Shown: one piece after another, positions 1-29,730 of the stretch
Layout: the number at the start of each line of letters is the position of its first letter
Numbering within the stretch: position 1 is the first letter of the stretch
Assembly (NCBI GenBank): GCA_947456305.1
Contig: CANGPN010000010.1
Span: 32,001 to 77,200 of the forward strand
Source of the DNA: Comamonadaceae bacterium
GTDB taxonomy: Bacteria > Pseudomonadota > Gammaproteobacteria > Burkholderiales > Burkholderiaceae_C
DNA: 45,200 bases
Reading direction: 5' to 3'
Translations under genes and position numbers: made by a program
Notes under the pieces: model-generated
Told to the model about the DNA's origin: nothing
Seen by the model: the letters and a program-made list of their open reading frames with translations, nothing else
Databases searched by the model: none

Positions 1-1703
1 ATTTGGCCGTCCATGGCTTCGCGGTAACTCAGCACCGAACCTATGTCTTCAGGCTCATACTGCTGGCCGACACTGGAATAAATGCCAACTTGTTTGAACA
101 AGTTCGCCATGCCGAAGGTGCGCGCCTCATCGGCGACGATGGGCACCACACGCGGTCCGAGTTGCGGGTCTTTCAGCAACTGTCCCAAAATGCGCACAAA
201 GGCCATGGTGGTCGACATTTCTTTGTGGTCGGCTTGCAAAGCAAAGCTTGCGTAGCTGGAGAGCGCGGGTACCGGCACAACCTCACAAGCCGTGTCGCGC
301 TTGGGCAAGTAGCCGCCCAGCGCCGTCCGTTTGGCATGCAGGTATTGCATTTCAGGCGAATCCGCCGCCGGTTTGAAGAAGTCCAGGTTGGTGGCCTGCG
401 CATCCGATAAAGGCAAATTGAAACGGTTACGAAATGCGAGCAAGGCAGATTCGTCAAGTTTTTTCTGGCTGTGCGTTGTCATCTTGCCTTGACCGGCTTG
501 GCCCATGCCATAGCCTTTTTTGGTGTGCGCCAGAATGACAGTGGGTTGTCCGGTGTGAGCGGCTGCGGCTGCGTAGGCTGCGTGGATTTTCACCAGATCG
601 TGGCCGCCGCGTTTGAGTCTGTCGATTTGCTCATCCGTCAAGCCTTGCGCGAGTTGCGCGAGCTCGGGGTTTTGGCCGAAGAAGGATTCGCGGTTAAAGC
701 GACCGTCCTTGGCGGCAAATGTTTGCATCTGGCCATCGACTGTGTTGGCAAACGCCTTGACCAATGCGCCGTGCGTGTCGCGTGCGAATAAGCCGTCCCA
801 GTCGCTGCCCCAAATCAATTTGATGACGTTCCACCCGGCCCCGCGAAACAGTTTTTCCAATTCATCGATGATGCGGCCATTGCCGCGCACCGGCCCGTCC
901 AAGCGTTGCAAATTGCAGTTCACTACCCAGACCAGGTTGTCTAAGCGTTCGCGTGAGGCCAGCGTGAGGGCGCTCATGCTCTCCGGTTCGTCCATCTCGC
1001 CGTCGCCGAACACGCCCCAGACCTTTCGGTTCTGGCAATTGAGTAAGCCCCTGTGCGTCAAGTAGCGCATGAAGCGTGCGTGGTAGATGGAGCTGATCGG
1101 GCCTATGCCCATGGAGCCGGTGGGGAACTGCCAGAAGTCCGGCATCAACCACGGATGCGGGTAACTGGAGAGGCCGCGTGCGCCTTCGCGCGGGGCTTTG
1201 AGTTCCTGGCGGTAATGCGATAAGTCGGCTTCGCTCAATCGGCCTTCGAGGTAGGCGCGGGCGTAAACACCGGGTGCGCTGTGCGGCTGGAAAAACACCA
1301 GATCGCCTTGGTGCTTGTCGTCGCGGGCATGGAAAAAATGGTTGTAGCCGACCTCGAACAAATCGGCAGCGCTGGCGTAGCTCGCGATGTGGCCGCCGAG
1401 TTCGCCATAAGCACCGTTGGCTTTAGCCACCATGGCCAACGCATTCCAACGCATGAGTGATGCGAGCTTTTCCTCGATGGCCAGGTCGCCGGGGTAGGGC
1501 AGCTGAGCTTGCACCGGAATGGTGTTGACATAAGGCGTGACCAGTTCGGGCGACCATTCAATCTGGCTTTGGTGCGCCAATGCCACCATTTGGTCCAACA
1601 AGTAGCGAGCACGCTCCGGACCGTAAGCGCCGACCACGCCTTGAAAAGCCTGGCGCCATTCGGCGGTTTCAATCGGGTCGATGTCAGTGGTTTTTTGCAG
1701 CAT
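1..1703 (-). CDS. Pyruvate dehydrogenase-type E1 component, MdeB-like, 3' end cut by window edge
   Basis: This is the N-terminal 567 residues of a homodimeric thiamine-diphosphate 2-oxoacid dehydrogenase E1; the frame is open to the window edge, and about 320 residues are missing compared with AceE (about 890). It starts at the ATG at 1703 (MLQKTTDIDP). Family features include RWNALAMVAKANG near residue 90, the TPP/Mg motif GDGEMDEPES from about residue 233 and the matching NCNLQRLDGPVRGNG. It is a paralogue of the aceE at 27019, which sits with E2 and E3 genes, whereas this copy sits divergently beside an Lrp-type regulator. That resembles Pseudomonas putida mdeB, an alpha-ketobutyrate-handling E1 next to the Lrp-type mdeR, although no mdeA lies between the two genes here. 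E1 identity is near certain; substrate (pyruvate or 2-oxobutyrate) is inference. Confidence 0.9.
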   Translation of the reverse strand, partial: MLQKTTDIDPIETAEWRQAFQGVVGAYGPERARYLLDQMVALAHQSQIEWSPELVTPYVNTIPVQAQLPYPGDLAIEEKLASLMRWNALAMVAKANGAYGELGGHIASYASAADLFEVGYNHFFHARDDKHQGDLVFFQPHSAPGVYARAYLEGRLSEADLSHYRQELKAPREGARGLSSYPHPWLMPDFWQFPTGSMGIGPISSIYHARFMRYLTHRGLLNCQNRKVWGVFGDGEMDEPESMSALTLASRERLDNLVWVVNCNLQRLDGPVRGNGRIIDELEKLFRGAGWNVIKLIWGSDWDGLFARDTHGALVKAFANTVDGQMQTFAAKDGRFNRESFFGQNPELAQLAQGLTDEQIDRLKRGGHDLVKIHAAYAAAAAHTGQPTVILAHTKKGYGMGQAGQGKMTTHSQKKLDESALLAFRNRFNLPLSDAQATNLDFFKPAADSPEMQYLHAKRTALGGYLPKRDTACEVVPVPALSSYASFALQADHKEMSTTMAFVRILGQLLKDPQLGPRVVPIVADEARTFGMANLFKQVGIYSSVGQQYEPEDIGSVLSYREAMDGQ

Positions 1704-5161: not shown

Positions 5162-5812
5162 TCAGCGCTTGCTGAGTTCGCTGCGGATCACTTTCATGAG
5201 CAACATCCACTCACCGCCGTTTTGCACGGTGAAAGTGAAGCGGTCTTTCATGCCGTTATTCATTTCTATTTCATGCCAGTTAGCAAAAATCGACAAGCCG
5301 CCTTTGCGTACCGCTGTGTCAGTGAACGAGATTTCTATGTGAATAAACGAAATCTCTTCGTTGCTGTCAAACGATTTGAAATACAAGCCATCTGACAATA
5401 AATAAAGCACCCCGGTAGGCATAGAAAACCGGCTGGTAGTATTGGCCGGGCCATAGGCGATGATGGTTTTATTGATCAACTCCACAGGTATGGTTTGTTG
5501 GATGATTTGTTGGGTATCGTGCGACTTATAAAGCGCAAAAGCCAGACCCACACCCAGAATGCAGAGTGCGTAGGTGTTGTTGAGAGTGGCCACAAAAACC
5601 AGCATGGCAAGCCATATGAACGGCATCCACAAATCCATGCGCATTTGCCATGGACTGCGGGAAATCAGCAATGAGCTGTTGTCCAGCGTATTGGCCAGTA
5701 TCAGCGGTGAGATGCTGGGCTTCTGTTTTTCGACATGCGGTAAGTGAGAGCCGCAATTCTGGCAAAAAACGTTTTCGCTGGGGTTGATGAAATAGCAGCT
5801 GGTGCAAATCAT
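5162..5812 (-). CDS. Zinc-ribbon membrane protein of unknown function
   Basis: A 216-residue protein beginning MICTSCYFINPSENVFCQNC: Cys3, Cys6, Cys17 and Cys20 form a zinc ribbon. After a linker, two close hydrophobic segments (MPFIWLAMLVFVATL and TYALCILGVGLAFALY) form a membrane hairpin at about residues 70-105. The remaining C-terminal 110 residues look like a soluble beta-rich domain (GVLYLLSDGLYFKSFDSNEE, then a region ending MLLMKVIRSELSKR) and would lie in the cytoplasm with the ribbon. The ATG at 5812 is chosen because the ribbon starts there; upstream codons in this frame read through the neighbouring gene. It is the last gene of a three-gene minus-strand cluster, 25 bases after the 463-residue protein. 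No function is recognised. Confidence 0.8.
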   Translation of the reverse strand: MICTSCYFINPSENVFCQNCGSHLPHVEKQKPSISPLILANTLDNSSLLISRSPWQMRMDLWMPFIWLAMLVFVATLNNTYALCILGVGLAFALYKSHDTQQIIQQTIPVELINKTIIAYGPANTTSRFSMPTGVLYLLSDGLYFKSFDSNEEISFIHIEISFTDTAVRKGGLSIFANWHEIEMNNGMKDRFTFTVQNGGEWMLLMKVIRSELSKR

Positions 5813-5837
5813 GGCTGGCTTTCGATGTGCATCGCTG

Positions 5838-7229
5838 TCAATGGCTCTTAGGCTTGCTGCTGCCTGAGGCGGGTTTGTCGTGTGAGGAGGAAGCGCCGTG
5901 ACCGCTGTCCTCTTTGCTCTGTGCATCTTTGGCCGGTTCCCCGTGGGCAGATTCCCCATGGGCCGGTTCACCATGCGAGGGTGCGTCGTGGGCAGGTGCA
6001 TCATGCCCGCTTTCGCCGTGTGCAGGTTTGTCATGACCGGCATCTGATTCGCCAGTCGCAGCATCGTGCGAGGTATGGGCCGCTGGTGATGTTTCGCGGC
6101 TGAGGAAGTTATAAATGGCCAAAGAACTCAACACCACGGTCAAGCCGCAGAGCAAACCGATGACAAAAATAATGAATCCGCCGCTGCCCTCTGTGTCGTC
6201 TTGGCTTGACTTGGTGGCTTTGGCTGATTTGGCTGCTGTTTCGTCAACTTTTTTACTGATGGCTTGCAGCTTGGTTTTGAGCTCATTGACGGCTGCGCTC
6301 ATGGGTGCAAGATTGCTTTCCAGGGTTTTGGCTGATTGTGTGTTCTCTGCCATCAAACTCTCAATCCGGGCCAGAATTTCCTGATTGGAAGACTCTACGT
6401 TGGCTGCATTCAGGGTGATGTTCTGGCTGAAATATTTCTGCAATTCGATTTTTTGCTTATCCAGCGAGAGCTTGAACTCTTCAGGCAATTTGATGACACC
6501 TGCGCTTGGCGCTTGGCTGAGTTGGACTTTGATCTCAGCCAGTTGATCAGTGAGCTGATTCTGGCGATCTATCACTTGCTTAAGCAAAGCTTCAGCCGGA
6601 TTGGGTAAAGACTGCAAATGGCTGATCTGCTGAGAATTCAAAGACAAAAAATCCAGCATTTGTGTATGCTTATCCAGCAATTTTTTGATCCCGGATTCGG
6701 CTTGTTCTCTGTCTGCCAGCCATTCAGAATCGACCGCAAGCAAAGTCTTGGGATGGCTGGCGTCGCCAGACAGGGATTTATCCACTTCGACTTCGGCAAC
6801 AACAGCATCAGGTTTGATAGATTCGGACTTTTGCTCAGCAGAAACTTTGGCTGTTTCAGGTTTGACTGTGTCCTCGGATTTGGTAGCCAAAGGAGGCTGT
6901 GCAGCGACTTTATGATCGGTTGTCTCATCCTGGGGATGCGCCATCAAGTCCAGATCGATTTTCAACAACGAAGCGTGCTCAACGCTTGATGGTGCGACGT
7001 CCAGGGTCAGAACCAAATCTTCAACTTCATGCAAAGTATTTGCGCTAGCCTCGGCCGGCGGGGGGATGTCCGTCAGAGTTGCTTGCAACAATGACGATGC
7101 TTGAGTATCTTGCTCAGCAGCTGCAGCAGGCCGTTTAACGGGCGCGCCGCATTTACCGCAAAATTTCGCAGTCAGAGAGATGGGTTTTCCGCAAGCGCCG
7201 CAATCCATGGTGTTTCCTGTGTCTTTCAT
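5838..7229 (-). CDS. Zinc-ribbon / coiled-coil / single-pass membrane protein with His-rich tail
   Basis: A 463-residue protein of unknown function. In order: a zinc ribbon (Cys10, Cys13, Cys24, Cys27); an acidic low-complexity linker rich in Ala, Glu and Val (about 35-165); a helical, coiled-coil-like region with many Gln, Leu and Lys (about 165-335); one membrane helix (GFIIFVIGLLCGLTVVLSSL, 351-370, extending to about 376); and an 85-residue tail of Ala, Gly, Ser, Asp, Glu and His. Seven histidines in the tail fall at 399, 404, 409, 414, 419, 424 and 429. The predicted topology puts ribbon and coiled coil in the cytoplasm and the His tail in the periplasm. Its start overlaps the stop of the upstream gene by 4 bases, so the two are translationally coupled. 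No named family is recognised. Confidence 0.82.
   Translation of the reverse strand: MKDTGNTMDCGACGKPISLTAKFCGKCGAPVKRPAAAAEQDTQASSLLQATLTDIPPPAEASANTLHEVEDLVLTLDVAPSSVEHASLLKIDLDLMAHPQDETTDHKVAAQPPLATKSEDTVKPETAKVSAEQKSESIKPDAVVAEVEVDKSLSGDASHPKTLLAVDSEWLADREQAESGIKKLLDKHTQMLDFLSLNSQQISHLQSLPNPAEALLKQVIDRQNQLTDQLAEIKVQLSQAPSAGVIKLPEEFKLSLDKQKIELQKYFSQNITLNAANVESSNQEILARIESLMAENTQSAKTLESNLAPMSAAVNELKTKLQAISKKVDETAAKSAKATKSSQDDTEGSGGFIIFVIGLLCGLTVVLSSLAIYNFLSRETSPAAHTSHDAATGESDAGHDKPAHGESGHDAPAHDAPSHGEPAHGESAHGEPAKDAQSKEDSGHGASSSHDKPASGSSKPKSH
5931..6035 (-). repeat. Degenerate 15-bp tandem repeat encoding His-containing pentapeptides
   Basis: Seven consecutive 15-base units encode pentapeptides starting with His: HDKPA, HGESG, HDAPA, HDAPS, HGEPA, HGESA, HGEPA. 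The next unit begins with Lys (KDAQS). The units differ at synonymous and non-synonymous positions, so this is an old or selected repeat rather than a fresh expansion. It lies in the C-terminal tail of the 463-residue protein. A strict His every five residues suggests metal binding or a repeated contact surface (inference). Confidence 0.85.
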
Positions 7230-7741
7230 TCAGATGAATAAATTCGGCACGGGGAGTATTTACCTGAGCCTGCATGGTGTTCTTCGCAATCTCTGATCAC
7301 GATTTCTTCTGCTGCTTCCTGACTTTTGTCCGTGTAGGCGTCTGCACAGTAAGCTGCCTCGCCATCAAAACTGTAGACAAAGGCTTTGAACGGTTTGTCA
7401 GGAAAGTTTTTCCGGTTATAGCGTTCGAATAGTTTTTTGCATTTACCCAGTAGCGGCGGCTTATACAAATCCCCAAGGGTTTGAAAGCGTCCTGGTCTCT
7501 CTTGCGCCGCCATATCTTCTTGCAATGTCGAAGTTTCCAGCGGTGGCGAATGATCGGCACCATGTGCAGGTGCATGGCGTGTGTCTGCGTGTGCATCCTG
7601 AGGCGCGTGAGCCGCCGCATCTTCAACGCCGGCAGCCTGCGGCTGCGAAGCCTTTAAAAGCGCTTTCGAATAAAAGTACATGGGCACATTGATGGCAGTC
7701 ATCAATAAGGCCATGATCAAGTATTTATTCAGGCTGGACAT
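7226..7741 (-). CDS. Membrane-anchored protein with His-rich linker and four-cysteine periplasmic domain
   Basis: A 171-residue protein when started at the ATG at 7741; an in-frame TTG at 7783 would add 14 residues that look like leader DNA. An N-terminal membrane helix (YLIMALLMTAINVPMYFYSK, residues 7-26) anchors it. It is followed by a His-rich linker with His at 45, 51, 56, 60 and 64, then a folded domain with Cys101, Cys132, Cys152 and Cys165, which could make two disulfides in the periplasm. The end of the domain (DCEEHHAGSGKYSPCRIY) resembles the end of the exported protein at 16614. It is first in the three-gene cluster and overlaps the 463-residue gene by 4 bases; both place His-rich segments on the same predicted side of the membrane. 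Function unknown. Confidence 0.78.
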   Translation of the reverse strand: MSSLNKYLIMALLMTAINVPMYFYSKALLKASQPQAAGVEDAAAHAPQDAHADTRHAPAHGADHSPPLETSTLQEDMAAQERPGRFQTLGDLYKPPLLGKCKKLFERYNRKNFPDKPFKAFVYSFDGEAAYCADAYTDKSQEAAEEIVIRDCEEHHAGSGKYSPCRIYSSE

Positions 7742-7978
7742 AAGAGAGGTTGGAAAATAGTCAATATTGACTGCAGTTTGCAAGCCATTCTTGCACTACT
7801 GGGATCGGCTGATCATGCCTGTACTTGAGCCTTATGGACCGTGTAAATAAAGAATCCAGACTTTATAAAAGTAATAAAAGTCAATGATTGTGAATAGTTT
7901 TGTTTATTGATAAATATAAAAAAATGTAAATTCTGAATTAGAATAGGAACCTAAGATTAACAATCATTGAGGTTTTTC

Positions 7979-8350
7979 ATGGCAGATCAAGTCTCTTCTC
8001 CTAGCAGCCTGATTATTGGTGAGGGGGTTATGTTTACCGGTTCTATCCACGCGCCGGGTACAGCCAGTATCAATGGCACTGTCAACGGCGAAGTGATTGT
8101 TGCGGATTTGCAAATTGGTCCCAAAGGCAATGTCGCCGGCAAAATAGAAGCCAAGGTGATAGATGTGCACGGTGTTTTATCGGACAAGATTGTCTGCCAT
8201 GAGCACATCATGATTCATCGCAGCGGCAGTGTGTCTGGCCAACTTGATTATGCTGATATTGAAATCGAACGCGGCGGCCAGTTCAAAGGCACCATGATTC
8301 AGCACAATCAATCAATTAAAAACGGCGATACAGTCATACCCAAAAAATAA
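7979..8350 (+). CDS. Bactofilin (polymer-forming cytoskeletal protein), copy 1
   Basis: A 123-residue bactofilin. The right-handed beta-helix core is seen in the repeating turns SLIIGEGVMFTGSIHAPGTA, then GTVNGEVIVADLQIGPKGNV, then GKIEAKVIDVHGVLSDKI, ending in ADIEIERGGQFKGTM, the usual last rung. The start at 7979 has GAGG 6 bases upstream. Bactofilins polymerise without nucleotide and localise cell-wall or envelope machinery. It lies divergently from the zinc-ribbon/His-rich cluster across about 240 bases of AT-rich DNA, so shared regulation is plausible. A second bactofilin is at 14157. Family call is firm; the partner is unknown. Confidence 0.93.
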   Translation: MADQVSSPSSLIIGEGVMFTGSIHAPGTASINGTVNGEVIVADLQIGPKGNVAGKIEAKVIDVHGVLSDKIVCHEHIMIHRSGSVSGQLDYADIEIERGGQFKGTMIQHNQSIKNGDTVIPKK

Positions 8351-10344: not shown

Positions 10345-10435
10345 AAACACTTCTCTGTTTTTGCCGTGTAAGCTTAAGTGAGCATTGCTTGTTTATTTGA
10401 ACACTGACTCGAGCTCTTTTTTGAAATACATTCCC

Positions 10436-10954
10436 ATGAATGCACCAAAATCATCGTTGATGTTGCTGATTTTGCTCAGTCTTTTGGCTGTGCACAGTCA
10501 AGCTGAAGAAAAACACGCGGCCCATTCGCATGGCCTAGGCACGCTGGAAATCGCCGTCGACGGCAAAATGGTCAAAGGCAATTTTGAAATACCTATGGAA
10601 AGCTTGCTGGGCCACGAGTACCTGCCGCGCAGTGCAGCAGAAAAAAAAGCCTTGGCCGATCTGCAAGCAGCGGCCTCCAAGGCTTCTTATTTCGTCAGCT
10701 TTCCTGCGGCGGCCGAATGCAAAGAAAAATCCCTTACCGCCGAATCCGCCATGTTTGCGGGTAAAAAGTCTGAGCATTCAGATTTAGATGTCGATTTTGA
10801 ATTTGAATGCGCCAAGCCCCAGGCTTTGAACCAGATCGAATTCCCGCTGTTTGCCAAACACCCGCGACTCGGCAGCCTGAAAGTTGACCTGGCCGGACCC
10901 AAAGGCCAAAAGTCTTTGACGGTCAAAGCCAAAGATCCGGTGTTGCGCTGGTGA
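10436..10954 (+). CDS. DUF2796 / ZrgA-like periplasmic protein, putative zinc-binding
   Basis: A 172-residue exported protein. The signal peptide is residues 1-23 (ending AVHSQA), followed by KHAAHSHGLGTLEIAVDGKM, the conserved DUF2796 start with His27, His30 and His32. Two cysteines (ECKEK and FECAKP) flank KSEHSDLDVDFEFE. In many relatives the segment before the second Cys is a long His/Asp/Glu-rich loop; here only one His remains. The family is linked to zinc starvation in Vibrio and Pseudomonas (the PA4063-PA4066 operon has the same gene content as I recall it). No Zur-box-like sequence is evident in the upstream bases. Its stop overlaps the next gene's GTG start by 4 bases. Start ATG 10436 is chosen for the signal peptide. 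Confidence 0.85.
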   Translation: MNAPKSSLMLLILLSLLAVHSQAEEKHAAHSHGLGTLEIAVDGKMVKGNFEIPMESLLGHEYLPRSAAEKKALADLQAAASKASYFVSFPAAAECKEKSLTAESAMFAGKKSEHSDLDVDFEFECAKPQALNQIEFPLFAKHPRLGSLKVDLAGPKGQKSLTVKAKDPVLRW

Positions 10955-11640
10955 ACACTGCAGCCATTCATCTTTCTCAGCTAAGCCACGCTTGGCCTCA
11001 GCAACCGCCGTTGTTTCATATTGATGAACTGACCCTGCCTCAAGGCAAACATTTGTTCATTCAAGGCCCTAGCGGCTGCGGTAAAAGCACATTGCTTTCT
11101 TTGCTCGCAGGTGTGCAAGCTGTGCAATCAGGTGTGTGCGAAGTGCTGGGCCGGGACATGGGCCGTTTGTCTGATGTGGAGCTCGACCGTCTGCGTGGCG
11201 ACCACATGGGCGTGATATTTCAGCAATTCAATTTGCTTTCTTACTTGGACGTGCAGGCCAATGTATTGATGCCCACACGACTTTTTCCCAGCCGGGCTGC
11301 GGCATCCGCGCGCGTCTGGGGGAGTCCGGTTGAACAAGCCAAGGCATTGGCACAGGCGCTAGGTTTGGGTGAAAAAATGTGGCGTCAGCCGATCAACCAG
11401 TTGTCGGTTGGTCAGCAACAGCGCGTGGCAGCAGTGCGGGCATTGATGGGCGCGCCTGATCTGGTGATTGCCGATGAACCTACATCGGCACTCGACGACG
11501 CCAGACAACTCGAATTTTTAGACCTGTTGTTGCAAACCGCAGACCAGCAAAACACCAGCGTCATCATGGTCAGCCATAACGAACGCTTGGCTCAACGCTT
11601 TGACCAGGTATTTGAAATGTTCGCTGGAGGCACACCATGA
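10951..11640 (+). CDS. ABC transporter ATP-binding protein, LolD/MacB type
   Basis: A 229-residue ABC ATPase starting at a GTG that overlaps the previous stop (GTGA). Walker A is GPSGCGKST, the Q-loop lies in VIFQQFNLL, the signature is LSVGQQQR, Walker B is LVIADEPTSALDD and the switch His is in IMVSHNE. It pairs with the FtsX/MacB-type permease encoded immediately downstream (4-base overlap). Such mechanotransmission transporters work on periplasmic or lipoprotein cargo rather than importing through the membrane. With DUF2796 and DUF3299 neighbours it is probably part of a metal-related envelope system. Confidence 0.93.
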   Translation: MNTAAIHLSQLSHAWPQQPPLFHIDELTLPQGKHLFIQGPSGCGKSTLLSLLAGVQAVQSGVCEVLGRDMGRLSDVELDRLRGDHMGVIFQQFNLLSYLDVQANVLMPTRLFPSRAAASARVWGSPVEQAKALAQALGLGEKMWRQPINQLSVGQQQRVAAVRALMGAPDLVIADEPTSALDDARQLEFLDLLLQTADQQNTSVIMVSHNERLAQRFDQVFEMFAGGTP

Positions 11641-12935
11641 GTCTGTGGATGTCGCTCGCCTGGCACAGCGCCTGGTCACGTCGCTTCGCGCTGGCACTGG
11701 TGACTGTGTCAGTCAGCGTCTCTGTGTTGATTCTGCTAGGCGTGCAGCAATTGCGCGAAGACGCCAGACGCAGTTTTTCCAACGCCTTGAGCGGTGTAGA
11801 TTTGATTGTCGGCCCGCGCGGCAGCGCCACCGAGTTGATGCTCTACAGCGTGTTTCAAATCGGCAGGCCCTCGCGCAACATGGGTATCAGTGGTTATGAA
11901 GAGATACTGCGCATGCCTCAAGTTCGTTGGGCGGTGCCGATTCAGCTTGGCGATTCTTACAAAGGCCATCCGGTGTTGGGCACCACACCGACGCTGTTCA
12001 CTGAATTCAAAAGCCAGGGCAAAGGTTTGCAATGGGCTCAGGGCCATGCATTTGCCAATCCTTTAGACAAGCCGGACGCCATGTCAGAGGTTGTTTTGGG
12101 CGCTGAAGTGGCCAAACGTTTTGGTCACAATGTCGGTGACAAACTGGTGCTCACCCACGGTGCCGGGGGCGGTCCCGGCGACACCGATCACGATGACCAT
12201 CCGTTGACGATTGTCGGCATTCTGGCGGCCACTGGTGCACCTATTGACCGTACCGTGTTACTCAACCTGGAAGGCTTCGAAGCCATGCACCAGGGTTGGG
12301 GCATGGGTATATCGCCTCAGGCACTGAAATCCGCCGCAGCGGCATTGCCCGAAACGCTCAATCCCAAAGACTTGCAACCCGTCAGTTTGTCGGCTGTGTG
12401 GGTTGGCTTGCACAACCGCTCTGAAGTATTTTCTGTGCGTCGCAAGATTGAGAGTTTTAACCGCGATCCGTTGATGGCTGTTTTACCTGGCGTCGCGTTG
12501 GACGAGTTATGGCAGGTGGTCAAAGTGCTGGAAAACAGCCTGGTGCTGATTGGTGCATTGGTCGCCGTCAGTGCCATGCTAAGTGTGGCCGCCGTTTTAT
12601 TGGTGGCCATGAGCGGCCGTCGCAAAGAGTTGGCTATTTTGCGGGCTATGGGTGCTGCACCTCGCGCGTTGCTGGGTTTTGTATTGCTTGAGTCCGTGTT
12701 GGTGTGTCTACTCGGTATAGTCTGCGGATACGCTGTCAGTCAGTTGCTGATGTGGGGCGCCCAAGACGCACTGCGTACCGGTTTCGGCATCATGGTCCAA
12801 CCCGGTTTGCCTTCCGTTGAAAGTCTGGCGAGTCTGGCGGCTTTGTTCAGTGTGGCAGTTCTGGCCAGTTTAATGCCCGCCTGGCGGGCATACCGATTGT
12901 CGCTGATGGATGGTTTGCATCCACCGGCGCTTTGA
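11637..12935 (+). CDS. ABC transporter permease, FtsX/MacB family
   Basis: A 432-residue membrane protein with the type VII ABC layout: an N-terminal membrane helix (LALVTVSVSVSVLILLGVQQ, about residues 18-37), a large periplasmic domain (about 40-290) with the MacB-like GPRGSATELMLYSVFQIG and VGIL segments, and three C-terminal helices (ENSLVLIGALVAVSAML, then LLGFVLLESVLVCLLGIVCG, then LAALFSVAVLASLMP) ending ARRAYRLSLMDGL-like as AWRAYRLSLMDGL. A His/Asp cluster (DTDHDDH) lies in the periplasmic part and could contact metal. It overlaps the ATPase gene by 4 bases and the DUF3299 gene by 1 base (TGATG). Confidence 0.92.
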   Translation: MSLWMSLAWHSAWSRRFALALVTVSVSVSVLILLGVQQLREDARRSFSNALSGVDLIVGPRGSATELMLYSVFQIGRPSRNMGISGYEEILRMPQVRWAVPIQLGDSYKGHPVLGTTPTLFTEFKSQGKGLQWAQGHAFANPLDKPDAMSEVVLGAEVAKRFGHNVGDKLVLTHGAGGGPGDTDHDDHPLTIVGILAATGAPIDRTVLLNLEGFEAMHQGWGMGISPQALKSAAAALPETLNPKDLQPVSLSAVWVGLHNRSEVFSVRRKIESFNRDPLMAVLPGVALDELWQVVKVLENSLVLIGALVAVSAMLSVAAVLLVAMSGRRKELAILRAMGAAPRALLGFVLLESVLVCLLGIVCGYAVSQLLMWGAQDALRTGFGIMVQPGLPSVESLASLAALFSVAVLASLMPAWRAYRLSLMDGLHPPAL

Positions 12936-13528
12936 TGCAGGAGTTACCCGTGTTCAGTTTTCAAACCCCATTGGCACGTCGACACGCCATGTTCATGTTG
13001 GCGGCACTGGCCTCAGCTGGTTTAAGCCGCGCCGAATCCGAGGTCTATAAAACCATCGATTGGAACGATCTCATGCCTGACCCATGGGTCAAGGAAATGA
13101 CTAAGGATATGGCGGCCATGAGCAAGTTGTCTTATCTGCAGGATTCCAGTGATGAAGCAACCAAGGCCATGAGCGCTATTCGAAAAAAACTGGATGAAGC
13201 CCCGATTGTGAAAACGCAGCTGAATAAGAAAGTACGCATACCAGGTTATGCCGTGCCCTTGGATGCCGAGCGCTCTGACAAACGTGAGTTTTTGCTGGTG
13301 CCGTATTTCGGGGCCTGCATACACACGCCACCGCCGCCCGCCAACCAGATCGTGTTGGTACGCCCGACCGCCCAAAGCAAAATCAAAAAAATGCCCGAGT
13401 CTATGGACGTGTTGTGGGTGGAAGGTGAATTAAAAGAAGGCCGCGTCAGTACTGGTCAGGGCGTCAGCGGTTATTTGTTGGAAGCTGTCAGCATCGCCCC
13501 TTATGAAAACAAGCCGGTCAAGCGCTGA
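12935..13528 (+). CDS. DUF3299 exported protein
   Basis: A 197-residue protein with an N-terminal signal region (ARRHAMFMLAALASAGLSRA); the double Arg is not followed by the full Tat consensus, so Sec export is equally likely. The conserved DUF3299 features are IDWNDLMPDPW, KVRIPGYAVPLD, FLLVPYFGACIHTPPPPANQ and the C-terminal SGYLLEAVSI. The CIHTPPPPANQ motif, with Cys and His, looks like an active or metal site. DUF3299 proteins commonly follow this kind of ABC transporter pair. The ATG at 12935 overlaps the permease stop by one base; TTG 12932 is the only nearby alternative. Biochemical role unknown. Confidence 0.88.
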   Translation: MQELPVFSFQTPLARRHAMFMLAALASAGLSRAESEVYKTIDWNDLMPDPWVKEMTKDMAAMSKLSYLQDSSDEATKAMSAIRKKLDEAPIVKTQLNKKVRIPGYAVPLDAERSDKREFLLVPYFGACIHTPPPPANQIVLVRPTAQSKIKKMPESMDVLWVEGELKEGRVSTGQGVSGYLLEAVSIAPYENKPVKR

Positions 13529-13560: not shown

Positions 13561-14133
13561 ATGGAATCCACGGACCCTAAAGAACTTGCTGAAGCGGCTA
13601 ACAACCCGTTCAAAACATACTGCGCTTTGCAGGTATCGGTTATTGCCATGGTTTTGGCGGTGTGCAGTATGGGCGGCAGCAATACAGGCAAAGACGCCAC
13701 CATGAACAATATTCTGGCGTCGAATACTTACTCGTTCTACCAGGCCAAAAGTGTTCGCCAGACCCAGTACAAACTTGCCGCTGACCAGCTTGAAATTCAG
13801 TTGAACTCAGACAAATTGACCCCGGCAGCCAAGACATTGCTGCAAGACAAGCTGACGGCCTACAAAAAAACCATTGATCGCTACGAGTCCGAGCCTGAAA
13901 ACGGTGAAGGCAAAAAAGAACTCATGGTTAAAGCCAAAGAATTCGAACATGAACGCGACACAGCGCTAAAAAAAGACCCATGGTTTGATTACGCTGAAGG
14001 TTTGCTGCAACTGGCAATTGTGCTGACTTCGGTGGCTATCATCACCGGGCGGCCCGCCATGGCCTATGTATCATTACTGCTGGGTATAGTCGGTTTGTTT
14101 TGTACGCTCAACGGATATTTCCTTTTTTTCTAA
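13561..14133 (+). CDS. DUF4337 membrane protein
   Basis: A 190-residue protein with one N-terminal hydrophobic segment (TYCALQVSVIAMVLAVCSMG) and two at the C-terminus (LLQLAIVLTSVAIITG and AYVSLLLGIVGLFCTLNGYF). Between them is a charged helical region. The motifs NTYSFYQAKSVRQTQYKLAA and PWFDYAEGLLQLAIVL match the DUF4337 family, whose function is unknown. It is followed 23 bases later by the second bactofilin gene on the same strand, so the two are probably co-transcribed, and a role in anchoring bactofilin at the membrane is a reasonable but untested inference. Confidence 0.85.
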   Translation: MESTDPKELAEAANNPFKTYCALQVSVIAMVLAVCSMGGSNTGKDATMNNILASNTYSFYQAKSVRQTQYKLAADQLEIQLNSDKLTPAAKTLLQDKLTAYKKTIDRYESEPENGEGKKELMVKAKEFEHERDTALKKDPWFDYAEGLLQLAIVLTSVAIITGRPAMAYVSLLLGIVGLFCTLNGYFLFF

Positions 14134-14156: not shown

Positions 14157-14570
14157 ATGGCAACCAATATGGATCAATCCAATAACCTCGTGATTGGTAA
14201 TGGCGTGACATTCAAAGGAACCTTGAATGTGCCCAAAAAAGCCACCATCTACGGCACGGTGGATGGCGAATTGACCGCTGAGGAAATTTTTATCGGTCAG
14301 TCAGGAAAAATCACCGGCAAAGTTACTGCACGCAGCATTGAAGTCGAGGGTGAATTACACCAGGTAATTCATTGTCGTGACCATTTGCACATTCGCGCAT
14401 CCGGAAAGGTGTCGGGCAAACTGGAATATTCACAAATTCAGATCGAGCGCGGCGGCGAGTTTCGCGGGGAAATGCAGCAAGTCGGCGCTGCGCCTGTTTA
14501 CCCGTCTGCCACACCTGTCATGGCAGCGCCCAAGCCGGCTGCACCTGTGCCAGGCAAAGAGGCTAGTTAA
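14157..14570 (+). CDS. Bactofilin, copy 2
   Basis: A 137-residue bactofilin paralogous to the gene at 7979. Matching rungs are NLVIGNGVTFKGTLNVPKKA, GTVDGELTAEEIFIGQSGKI, GKVTARSIEVEGELHQVI and SQIQIERGGEFRGEM. It differs by a 27-residue Ala/Pro-rich C-terminal tail (PVYPSATPVMAAPKPAAPVP), probably disordered and a site for partner binding. Its last 8 bases overlap the convergent gene at 14563. Having two bactofilins of different tails suggests separate sites of action or co-polymers. Confidence 0.93.
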   Translation: MATNMDQSNNLVIGNGVTFKGTLNVPKKATIYGTVDGELTAEEIFIGQSGKITGKVTARSIEVEGELHQVIHCRDHLHIRASGKVSGKLEYSQIQIERGGEFRGEMQQVGAAPVYPSATPVMAAPKPAAPVPGKEAS

Positions 14571-16613: not shown

Positions 16614-16943
16614 TTATTCCTTGATCACACGGCAAGGGCCTTTGACACCACGTTTTTCTTTCATTTGTTCGCAACGTTCCATGGCTTTACGTTCGGCCAC
16701 GGCAGACATCTTGACGTAAATCGAACAAGTGAAAATCATTTTTTCCTGGTCTATGCTGCTGTCATAACTGACCACGCAGCGACCAATGTCACCTAAGTTG
16801 GGTTTTTCGTGCCTGTAGGCCTCTTGCAAAGCGCCGGGCAGATCATGCAAAGACACGCCAGGGTAAACATAAGGTTCAGCCAGCGCCAACAAGGCTGCGC
16901 TCAAAAATATTCCTGAAATGATTGTTTTGACTGCTTTATTCAT
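16614..16943 (-). CDS. Small exported cysteine-containing protein
   Basis: A 109-residue protein with a signal peptide (MNKAVKTIISGIFLSAALLA then LA, cleavage before EPYVYPG). Mature cysteines lie in IGRCVVSYDSS, FTCSIYVKMS, MERCEQMKEK and GPCRVIKE: four in total, consistent with two disulfides. The end (C, twelve residues, C, inside CEx11PCRV) has the same spacing as the last two cysteines of the membrane-anchored protein at 7226. The start at 16943 is chosen for the signal peptide; an upstream start at 17021 would add 26 unlikely residues. No function is known. It is convergent with the MAPEG gene and divergent from the gene at 17047. Confidence 0.75.
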   Translation of the reverse strand: MNKAVKTIISGIFLSAALLALAEPYVYPGVSLHDLPGALQEAYRHEKPNLGDIGRCVVSYDSSIDQEKMIFTCSIYVKMSAVAERKAMERCEQMKEKRGVKGPCRVIKE

Positions 16944-17046
16944 GGCTTGAATCTTATGCCATTTGTCTGTCATCCAGCGACTGGTCTCAAGCGTTGACAT
17001 ACCAGTCCTTGCGTTTGACAAGGTTGACCTGACAAGGGGAATACAT

Positions 17047-27018: not shown

Positions 27019-29730
27019 ATGTCCGCATTGCCCGACAACTTACATACGTTTGCATCTAATGACAGCGACTCTCAAGAAACCCGTGAATGGATGGACGCGT
27101 TGTCTGCCGTCATTGCATCAGAAGGTCCTGAAAGAGCGCATTTTTTATTAGAGCAATTGCTTGAACACGCCAGAGAAAACAGCATCGACATGCCGTTCTC
27201 TGCCAACACCGGTTATGTCAATACCTTGGAGCCGGACCAAGAAGAGCGATGCCCCGGCAATATTGAAATAGAAGAACGTTTGCGCGCTTACATGCGCTGG
27301 AACGCCATGGCCATGGTGGTCAAGGCCAATCGACACAATCCCGCCGATGGCGGTGACTTGGGCGGACACATCGGTTCATTTGCCTCGCTTGCCCACATGT
27401 TCGGTGCCGGCTTCAACCATTTCTGGCATGCCGAAAACGAAAACCACGGCGGTGACTTGCTCTACATACAAGGCCATGTGTCACCCGGTGTGTATGCACG
27501 CGCTTATTTGGAAGGCAGATTGACCGAAGAGCAATTGCTCAATTTCCGTCAAGAAGTGGATGGCAAAGGTTTGTCAAGTTATCCGCACCCCAAGCTCATG
27601 CCCGAGTTTTGGCAGTTCCCTACCGTGTCCATGGGCTTGGGCCCGTTGATGGCGATTTACCAAGCCCGTTTTTTAAAGTATTTGCATGCTCGCGGTATCG
27701 CCAACACTGAAAACCGCAAGGTCTGGGTGTTCTGCGGCGACGGCGAAATGGATGAAGTTGAATCACTGGGCGCCATCGGTTTGGCGGCTCGCGAAAAACT
27801 CGACAATCTGATTTTTGTCATCAACTGCAATTTGCAGCGGTTGGACGGCCCGGTTCGCGGCAACGGCAAAATCATTCAAGAGCTGGAAAGTGAATTCAGA
27901 GGCGCTGGCTGGAATGTGCTCAAACTGATTTGGGGCAGCAACTGGGACCCGCTGATTGCCCGCGACAAAGACGGTGCGCTGCGTCGAATCATGATGGAAA
28001 CCGTCGACGGCGACTACCAAGCCTTCAAAGCCAACGACGGCGCTTATGTGCGCAAACATTTCTTTGGCCGTGACCCGCGCACTTTAGAGATGGTCGCCAA
28101 GATGAGCGACGACGACATCTGGAATTTGCGTCGCGGCGGTCACGATCCGCAAAAGGTCTACGCGGCTTATGCGGCAGCGGTCAAGCACAAAGGCCAGCCC
28201 ACCGTGCTATTGATCAAAACCGTCAAAGGTTTTGGCATGGGCACTTCCGGTGAAGGAAAGAACACGGTTCACCAGACCAAAAAGCTGACCGACGAAGACA
28301 TCAAAGCCTTCCGCGACCGCTTCAATATTCCTATTCCTGACAGCGAATTGTCCAAATTGCCGTTTTACAAACCGGCAGACGACACACCTGAAATGCGTTA
28401 TTTGCACGAGCGTCGTGCAGCCCTGGGTGGTTACCTGCCACACCGCCGCACCAAAGCCGATGAGCATTTCACCGTGCCGAGTTTGGAAGTGTTCAAACCC
28501 ATCACCGAGGCCACAGCCGAAGGTCGCGAGATATCTACAACGCAGGCCTATGTGCGTTTTCTCACACAATTGCTGCGCGACCAAGCGCTGGGTAAACGCG
28601 TGGTTCCTATTTTGGTCGACGAGGCCCGCACTTTCGGCATGGAAGGCTTGTTTCGCCAAATCGGTATTTACAACCCCGACGGTCAACAGTACACACCTGT
28701 CGACAAAGACCAGGTGATGTTTTACAAAGAAGACAAGGCCGGTCAGATATTGCAAGAAGGCATCAACGAAGCCGGTGGCATGAGCAGTTGGATTGCGGCG
28801 GCAACCTCGTATTCGACGAACAACCGCATCATGATTCCGTTCTACGTTTACTACTCCATGTTCGGCTTCCAGCGCATCGGCGATCTGGCATGGGCGGCAG
28901 GCGACATGCAAGCCCGCGGCTTTTTGCTTGGCGGCACATCCGGTCGCACTACGTTGAACGGCGAAGGTTTGCAACACGAAGACGGCCACAGCCACATTCT
29001 GGCGGGCACCATTCCGAATTGCATCAGCTACGACCCGACTTTTGCGCATGAAGTGGCGGTCATCATGCAGCACGGTTTGAAACGCATGGTGGAAAAGCAA
29101 GAGAACGTGTTTTATTACCTCACCTTGCTGAACGAAAACTACGCCATGCCGGGGCTGACACTGGGTACTGAAGAGCAGATCATCAAAGGCATGTATTTGT
29201 TGCAAGCAGCTGATGGCGCGAAAAAAATGCCGCGCGTCAATTTGCTGGGTTCGGGCAGCATATTGCGTGAGTCTATGGCGGCGCGTGATCTGCTGGCAGC
29301 TGACTGGGGCATTGCGGCCAACGTTTGGAGTTGCCCCAGTTTCAATGAACTGGCACGTGACGGCGCAGAAGCAGAGCGTTGGAATCTGCTGCACCCGACA
29401 GACACGCCACGCGTATCTTTTGTGGCGCAGCAACTCGGTGCGCACGAAGGACCGGTGGTTGCATCTACCGACTACATGAAGTCGTATGCAGACCAGATTC
29501 GCGCATACATACCCAAAGGCCGCAGCTACAAAGTGCTGGGCACAGACGGCTTCGGCCGCTCCGATTTCCGCAGCAAACTGCGTGAGCATTTTGAAATCAA
29601 CCGGCATTACATTGTGGTGGCCGCATTGAAAGCGTTGAGTGAGGAGGGCAGCATTCCTGCAGCTACCGTGGCCAAGGCGATTCAACAATACCAACTGTCA
29701 GCGGACAAAATCAATCCGCTGAACGCATAA
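27019..29730 (+). CDS. aceE: Pyruvate dehydrogenase E1 component, homodimeric
   Basis: A 903-residue E1, decarboxylating pyruvate with thiamine diphosphate and passing the acetyl group to lipoyl-AceF. The ATG at 27019 is chosen because AGGAG lies just upstream (27008-27012); ATG 26968 would add 17 unconserved residues. Conserved sites include RWNAMAMVVKANRHNPADGG, the TPP motif GDGEMDEVESLGAIGLAARE and NCNLQRLDGPVRGN, the KTVKGFGMGTSGEGKNTVHQ segment, DEARTFGMEGLFRQIGIYNP and QYTPVD in the C-terminal half. Length matches AceE (about 890). It is the first gene of aceE-aceF-lpdA, 16 bases before aceF, and a paralogue of the E1 at 1-1703. Confidence 0.97.
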   Translation: MSALPDNLHTFASNDSDSQETREWMDALSAVIASEGPERAHFLLEQLLEHARENSIDMPFSANTGYVNTLEPDQEERCPGNIEIEERLRAYMRWNAMAMVVKANRHNPADGGDLGGHIGSFASLAHMFGAGFNHFWHAENENHGGDLLYIQGHVSPGVYARAYLEGRLTEEQLLNFRQEVDGKGLSSYPHPKLMPEFWQFPTVSMGLGPLMAIYQARFLKYLHARGIANTENRKVWVFCGDGEMDEVESLGAIGLAAREKLDNLIFVINCNLQRLDGPVRGNGKIIQELESEFRGAGWNVLKLIWGSNWDPLIARDKDGALRRIMMETVDGDYQAFKANDGAYVRKHFFGRDPRTLEMVAKMSDDDIWNLRRGGHDPQKVYAAYAAAVKHKGQPTVLLIKTVKGFGMGTSGEGKNTVHQTKKLTDEDIKAFRDRFNIPIPDSELSKLPFYKPADDTPEMRYLHERRAALGGYLPHRRTKADEHFTVPSLEVFKPITEATAEGREISTTQAYVRFLTQLLRDQALGKRVVPILVDEARTFGMEGLFRQIGIYNPDGQQYTPVDKDQVMFYKEDKAGQILQEGINEAGGMSSWIAAATSYSTNNRIMIPFYVYYSMFGFQRIGDLAWAAGDMQARGFLLGGTSGRTTLNGEGLQHEDGHSHILAGTIPNCISYDPTFAHEVAVIMQHGLKRMVEKQENVFYYLTLLNENYAMPGLTLGTEEQIIKGMYLLQAADGAKKMPRVNLLGSGSILRESMAARDLLAADWGIAANVWSCPSFNELARDGAEAERWNLLHPTDTPRVSFVAQQLGAHEGPVVASTDYMKSYADQIRAYIPKGRSYKVLGTDGFGRSDFRSKLREHFEINRHYIVVAALKALSEEGSIPAATVAKAIQQYQLSADKINPLNA

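Follow-up and report, generated by a model that had tools for sequence, protein, structure and literature searches.

A conserved operon with a sigma-28-type promoter beside a bactofilin gene in a Comamonadaceae genome

Gene content and distribution of the operon

The 45.2-kb stretch of DNA analyzed here, hereafter called the window (contig CANGPN010000010.1 of a Comamonadaceae bacterium), contains three minus-strand genes, designated P3, P2, and P1 in the order of their transcription, and a divergently oriented bactofilin gene, bact1 (Table 1). A previous reading based on the letters alone (the sequence-only reading) had described these four genes, and all of them are present as it had placed them, including the 4-base overlap of P3 with P2 and the gap of 25 bases from P2 to P1. 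This gap results from starting P1 at the ATG at 5812; the listed 300-aa open reading frame begins within P2. The same reading had overlooked a sigma-28 (FliA)-type promoter in front of the operon, which was found here and is described below.

The order and strand of P3 and P1 are kept even in relatives with a P3 that is only about 25% identical, and because of this persistence the arrangement is more than chance: P1–P3 are real genes and constitute a stable operon. The comparison with related genomes suggests that the window's genus is Limnohabitans (freshwater bacteria). Of 61 genomes searched, 23 had P3, all of them among the 37 from the window's genus and none among the 24 from other families of the order. 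A profile search over 84 genus genomes identified P3 in 41. Among these 41 loci, 19 have a P3 that is 47–100% identical to the one in the window (close loci); the other 22 are referred to as distant loci. P1 follows P3 in 38 loci. In the remaining three (G025, G013, and G027) the contig stops soon after P3, and G025 and G027 have P1 on another contig. P2 was present in 29 of the 30 loci checked. Among 399 genomes of the family, few of them from the genus, full-length P1 occurred only in the window's genus. In the genomes sampled, the operon is restricted to this genus. Two loci labelled Rickettsia typhi and Bordetella parapertussis (L037 and L041) have the gene order of the genus genomes G518 (contig C83) and G519 (contig C44), and these species labels look wrong.

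The zinc ribbons, the membrane helices, and the His-containing tail of P2 agree with the sequence-only reading; the coiled coil of P2 was judged by eye. In P1, the zinc ribbon stays under the Pfam cut-off (17.7 vs 25), and all 12 aligned relatives retain its four Cys residues. The C terminus of P1 is modelled as a seven-strand barrel closed by a C-terminal helix, as characteristic of PH/GRAM-like domains. The membrane helix of the window's P3 is present in the structure model and falls under the hydropathy threshold used, one of 5 such cases among 18 close members. Residues C101, C132, C152, and C165 of P3 are invariant in 16 of 16 members. Weak Pfam matches of this Cys domain to DUF4189 were obtained for 4 of the 16 (best E 0.046), the window member having no match. 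According to the predicted topology, the zinc ribbons, the PH-like domain, and the bactofilin would be cytoplasmic and the P3 Cys domain and the P2 tail would be outside, which fits the anatomy of the proteins.

Scans against Pfam and NCBIfam revealed no curated family spanning the whole of P3 or the whole of P1, no adhesin, enzyme, or secretion domain in P1–P3, and no match to a named flagellar or bactofilin-partner family. A literature search found no paper describing such a system, and the statement of the sequence-only reading that the genes belong to no named system stands. Elsewhere in the window, the gene at 16614–16967 (minus strand) encodes a small Cys protein that is probably exported; judged by eye, its C-terminal Cys residues are spaced similarly to those of the P3 domain, and Pfam gave no match.

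Table 1. Features of the P3-P2-P1 locus. Genes and promoter are given in positions of the window, protein parts in residues.
Feature	Position	Strand	Remarks
P1 gene	5162..5812	-	216 aa
P2 gene	5838..7229	-	463 aa
P3 gene	7226..7741	-	171 aa
Sigma-28 (FliA)-type promoter of the operon	7804..7829	-	CTCAAGT-N14-CCGAT; 88 nt upstream of the start of P3
bact1 (bactofilin gene)	7979..8350	+	123 aa; divergent, 237 bases from P3
P1 zinc ribbon	N-terminal		C3, C6, C17, C20
P1 membrane hairpin (predicted)	54-76 and 79-104		Two helices in the model
P1 PH/GRAM-like C-terminal domain (predicted)	117-215		
P2 zinc ribbon	N-terminal		Zn_Ribbon_1, passes with 25.7 bits vs Pfam cut-off 25
P2 middle part			Long disordered/coiled-coil stretch, by eye
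P2 membrane helix (predicted)	~352-370		Single helix, from hydropathy
P2 tail			93 residues, 12 His
P3 N-terminal membrane helix (predicted)	3-31		AlphaFold2 model
P3 linker			64 residues, low-complexity, 5 His
P3 C-terminal domain (predicted)			Alpha-beta-beta-alpha-beta, four Cys; AlphaFold2, domain blocks pLDDT 79-94

A sigma-28-type element upstream of P3

In an alignment of 16 spacers between P3 and the bactofilin gene, the only invariant runs of at least four columns were CTCAAG and CGAT, both on the P3 side and at a fixed spacing, while the rest of the spacer was barely alignable within the close group. The sequence CTCAAG-N15-YCGAT is located upstream of P3 in 19 of 19 close loci, and we take the spacing of TCAAG-N15-CCGAT to be that of sigma-28 promoters. 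The control promoters in the genus, those of fliS (5 of 5 loci) and flgM (two inspected), all contain CTCAAGTT, with N15 between TCAAG and [CTA]CGA[TA]. A weight matrix built solely from these seven fliS/flgM sites (maximum score 21.4) assigned scores of 12.7–17.5 to the P3 upstream regions of the 19 close loci, each with p ≤ 0.010 against 300 shuffles. With 17.5, the P3 site is the sole one reaching at least 14 within the window. The distance to P3 is 81–88 nt in 18 close loci. Throughout the genome, TCAAG-N15-CCGAT occurs 16 times vs once for the reversed control, several of the 16 occurrences being apparently intragenic.

The window's genome encodes FliA (234 bits, cut-off 189.6) and FlgM (55 bits), both at L128, as well as FliS, all of which exceed the curated cut-offs. 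It also contains genes that, from inspection of their sequences, we take to encode FlhA, FlhF, MotA, MotB, and FliP/Q/R/FlhB. Taken from the sequence, the case for sigma-28 regulation of the operon in the close group is strong.

Similar elements were noticed at other places. In the same genome (G000; contig C19, L131 4557-7990), fliP/Q/R/flhB-like genes are followed by genes for a SPOR-domain protein, a 180-aa His-rich protein, and a 394-aa coiled-coil membrane protein, the last of which, downstream of flhB, has a sigma-28-like site at 6655 with the maximum score of 21.4; these are possible further flagellar accessory genes. A strong site (L129 10081, score 17.5) precedes a gene for an Adhesin_E-family protein. 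Two genes on contigs C7 and C4 of G000 (L130 5969-6766 and L129 10095-11393, both minus strand) encode predicted exported proteins with His-rich stretches, in one case with DHGAP repeats; both have TCAAG-N15-CCGAT upstream and matrix scores <14.

The bactofilin neighbour and possible functions

The bact1 product matches the Pfam family Bactofilin (PF04519) with residues 12–106 of 123 (75.8 bits, cut-off 27.9). Its gene is flanked by P3 and, downstream, by a 96-aa open reading frame followed by YaeQ. A bactofilin gene adjoins P3 in 18 of 19 close loci, separated by 151–252 bp; in the 19th, only 144 bases of the contig precede P3. In G014, the bactofilin (C1:26531) is still located beside P3 though YaeQ is about 11 kb off (C1:15287). 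In the distant loci, six bactofilin queries detected a bactofilin in 0 of 22 within the flanks examined, which reach 0.5–8.7 kb upstream of P3. Five genus genomes in which no operon was found (G003, G004, G009, G010, and G011) have bactofilins that are 52–58% identical to bact1 in other gene neighbourhoods, and in a tree of 39 bactofilins the operon-linked ones did not form a well-supported clade. Hence, the four genes do not generally go together: what is stable is the operon, and the bactofilin accompanies it in one group only. The sequence-only reading had itself named the occurrence of the bactofilin without these genes in most relatives as evidence against its four-gene module, and this applies in part.

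The bact1 product begins with MADQVSSPSS and is without an MFSK-type membrane-targeting peptide, the motif being that given in the available text of PMC12448750. The motif was missing from 38 of the 39 bactofilins compared (with starts picked by a script), including some in operon-less genomes; the sole exception, L046_6655, begins with MFNKSK. No M23 peptidase gene is located next to bact1, as would characterize a bactofilin-M23 morphogenesis module; in the same genome, an M23 peptidase gene (L046 7082-8128) sits between two other bactofilin genes. Of the four bactofilins in the genome, a second one is encoded in the window at 14157–14570 (plus strand), 23 bases after a gene for a DUF4337 predicted membrane protein (13561–14133, plus strand), and it is likewise without an MFSK-type peptide. 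In the nearly complete genus genomes G017 and G023 we found no FliA over the cut-off, no bactofilin match, and no operon; in this genus, bactofilins may have been lost together with flagella.

We favour the reading that P3-P2-P1 is a late flagellar (sigma-28/FliA) operon for an accessory envelope complex, with the bactofilin as a neighbour in one group, and consider its chances of being correct about evenly balanced. Sigma-28/FliA would drive the operon in the window's group as part of the late flagellar regulon, and P1–P3 would assemble as an inner-membrane complex. Within it, the flexible linker of P3 would carry the 4-Cys domain into the periplasm, P2 would contribute a cytoplasmic coiled coil, one membrane helix, and a periplasmic tail, and P1 would hold its zinc ribbon and PH-like domain at the cytoplasmic face by means of the membrane hairpin. 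Such a complex would most likely be a flagellar accessory, e.g., in motor support, placement, or polar organization, and the bactofilin, having no membrane-targeting sequence, may take P1 or P2 as its membrane client. More speculatively, P1–P3 could be a so far unseen, sigma-28-built accessory structure of the Comamonadaceae flagellar motor or flagellated pole, whose PH-like/zinc-ribbon base scaffolds the bactofilin or is scaffolded by it and whose P3 4-Cys domain touches periplasmic parts of the motor or wall; this specific form we regard as unlikely. The favoured reading and its alternatives are not mutually exclusive, and the levels of confidence given for them here are not meant to add up to one.

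Several observations weigh against the flagellar assignment. Across the 84 genus genomes, many of them incomplete assemblies, the operon and FliA showed no significant association: P3 is present in 34 of 65 with FliA vs 7 of 19 without (p = 0.30); at a completeness of ≥90% (44 genomes), the numbers are 19 of 39 vs 1 of 5 (p = 0.36). Genome G527 (96% complete) has the operon with an intact P3 site (score 16.6), and G439 (99% complete) has P1 near a contig start; neither has a FliA match over the cut-off. Since 31 of the 65 FliA-positive genomes are without P3, the operon is not needed for flagella. The upstream regions of the 22 distant P3 loci score 1.5–12.7 (p 0.010–0.82), i.e., their site is weak or absent, and we do not claim that they belong to the regulon. 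The upstream region of the bactofilin has no sigma-28 element (matrix score 1.5). No site was present upstream of motA in any of 5 loci (−0.1 to 3.0), a result to be expected only with transcription of motA from the fliS promoter.

It could be argued that the adjacency of the bactofilin is the coincidence of one insertion site and that the sigma-28-like match reflects chance plus the recent common descent of one group. All 19 loci with strong sites are close relatives and strong sites are missing from the distant loci; however, CTCAAG and CGAT are invariant at a fixed spacing in a spacer that otherwise hardly aligns, and the element is the same as that before fliS and flgM, so we consider this explanation quite improbable. 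Somewhat better, though still rather unlikely, is a role independent of flagella, in which the bactofilin, serving cell shape or the cell wall, is held at the membrane by P1 and/or P2 and through them connected with the periplasm. This would suit the constant neighbourhood in the close loci with its short spacer, the bactofilin that remained by P3 in G014 despite the distant YaeQ, and the MFSK-less N terminus of bact1, given that overproduction of the client PbpC can substitute for the motif in Caulobacter (PMC12448750, available text). It is at odds with the absence of bactofilins from the examined flanks of all 22 distant loci, with the general lack of the motif in the bactofilins compared, some from operon-less genomes, with the sigma-28 site on the operon side only, and with the tree. 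Comparable weight is due to the possibility that P1–P3 make up a complex of the envelope or for surface attachment whose expression is coupled to motility via FliA but which is no part of the flagellum. Two of the strong sites mentioned above (L129 10081 and L131 6655) precede genes not known as flagellar parts, and one P3 relative (P0039, 55% identical) is labelled “protein required for attachment to host cells”, the other labels shown being “hypothetical protein”; but there is no visible basis for this label, and P1–P3 are without adhesin, enzyme, or secretion domains.

The sequence-only reading had proposed that the His-rich segments form a metal-responsive or metal-bridged link between the bactofilin polymer and the periplasm. 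The label “His-rich” is strongly justified for the P2 tail in the window (12 His in 93 residues) and modestly for the P3 linker (5 in 64). Several distant members retain short P2 tails with few His, which can keep a similar density, e.g., 4 in 30 residues in L053. Moreover, the window encodes in a row at 10433–13528 (plus strand) a ZrgA-type zinc-uptake protein (PF10986, E 2e-35), an ABC ATPase, an FtsX-type permease, and a DUF3299 protein, probably a zinc-uptake operon that is near to but separate from the P1–P3 operon. Against the proposal, the His content varies. The P2 tails have 4–12 His in 51–93 residues in close members (one truncated member apart) vs 1–4 in the 10 measurable of 12 distant members; those of L062 and L064 have just 3 in 123–128 residues, and there a His-rich stretch is on the opposite, cytoplasmic side of the helix. 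The P3 linkers contain 1–6 His in close and 0–7 in distant members. Such variation argues against a conserved metal bridge, short of excluding it. Furthermore, no Zur-like site was found near the operon when ≤2 mismatches to the motif were allowed; the whole window has a single match, at 27212 with 2 mismatches, vs 2.73 expected. Altogether, the metal link is unsupported and appears very improbable.

Relation to known bactofilin and flagellar systems

A connection between bactofilins and flagella exists in Bacillus subtilis, where the bactofilins BacE and BacF are required for hook and filament assembly (PMC4627819, available text). The likeness is that of a membrane bactofilin tied to flagella; the differences are that the available text of that study describes no relatives of P1–P3 and that here the sigma-28 element belongs to the membrane-protein operon, not to the bactofilin. 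The location of a bactofilin gene next to a membrane-protein gene recalls BacA-PbpC of Caulobacter, where membrane attachment can come from the client in place of the targeting peptide (PMC12448750, available text), and the pairing of a bactofilin with an M23 endopeptidase in Hyphomonas (PMC10945521, available text). Unlike in those pairs, none of P1–P3 belongs to a matched family of cell-wall enzymes. With no membrane-targeting peptide of its own and candidate membrane clients alongside, the bact1 product is a case to study.

With regard to the fold, the C-terminal domain of P1 shares 15–16% sequence identity with PH/GRAM-like domains such as the PH-like domain of Lam6 (5yqr) and that of MTMR2 (1zvr). 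In P1, unlike in these, the PH-like part is joined to a zinc ribbon and a membrane hairpin.

Hylemonella is a genus of the Comamonadaceae. In the motor of the betaproteobacterium Hylemonella gracilis, the stator ring is made up of proteins that are unknown (PMC5758724, available text). This ring, the T ring of Vibrio, and PflA/PflB of Campylobacter consist of membrane or periplasmic flagellar accessory proteins, as we propose for P1–P3. In contrast to these stator-support rings, P1–P3 match no such Pfam or NCBIfam family, being set apart by family scans rather than by one-by-one comparison, and they were found in one genus only, where they are missing from about half of the FliA-positive genomes. 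Accessory rings of unknown proteins are present in some betaproteobacterial motors, with Hylemonella as the case given in PMC5758724 (available text), and a sigma-28-type operon of undescribed membrane proteins, in one group beside a bactofilin gene, provides named candidate genes in a freshwater genus.

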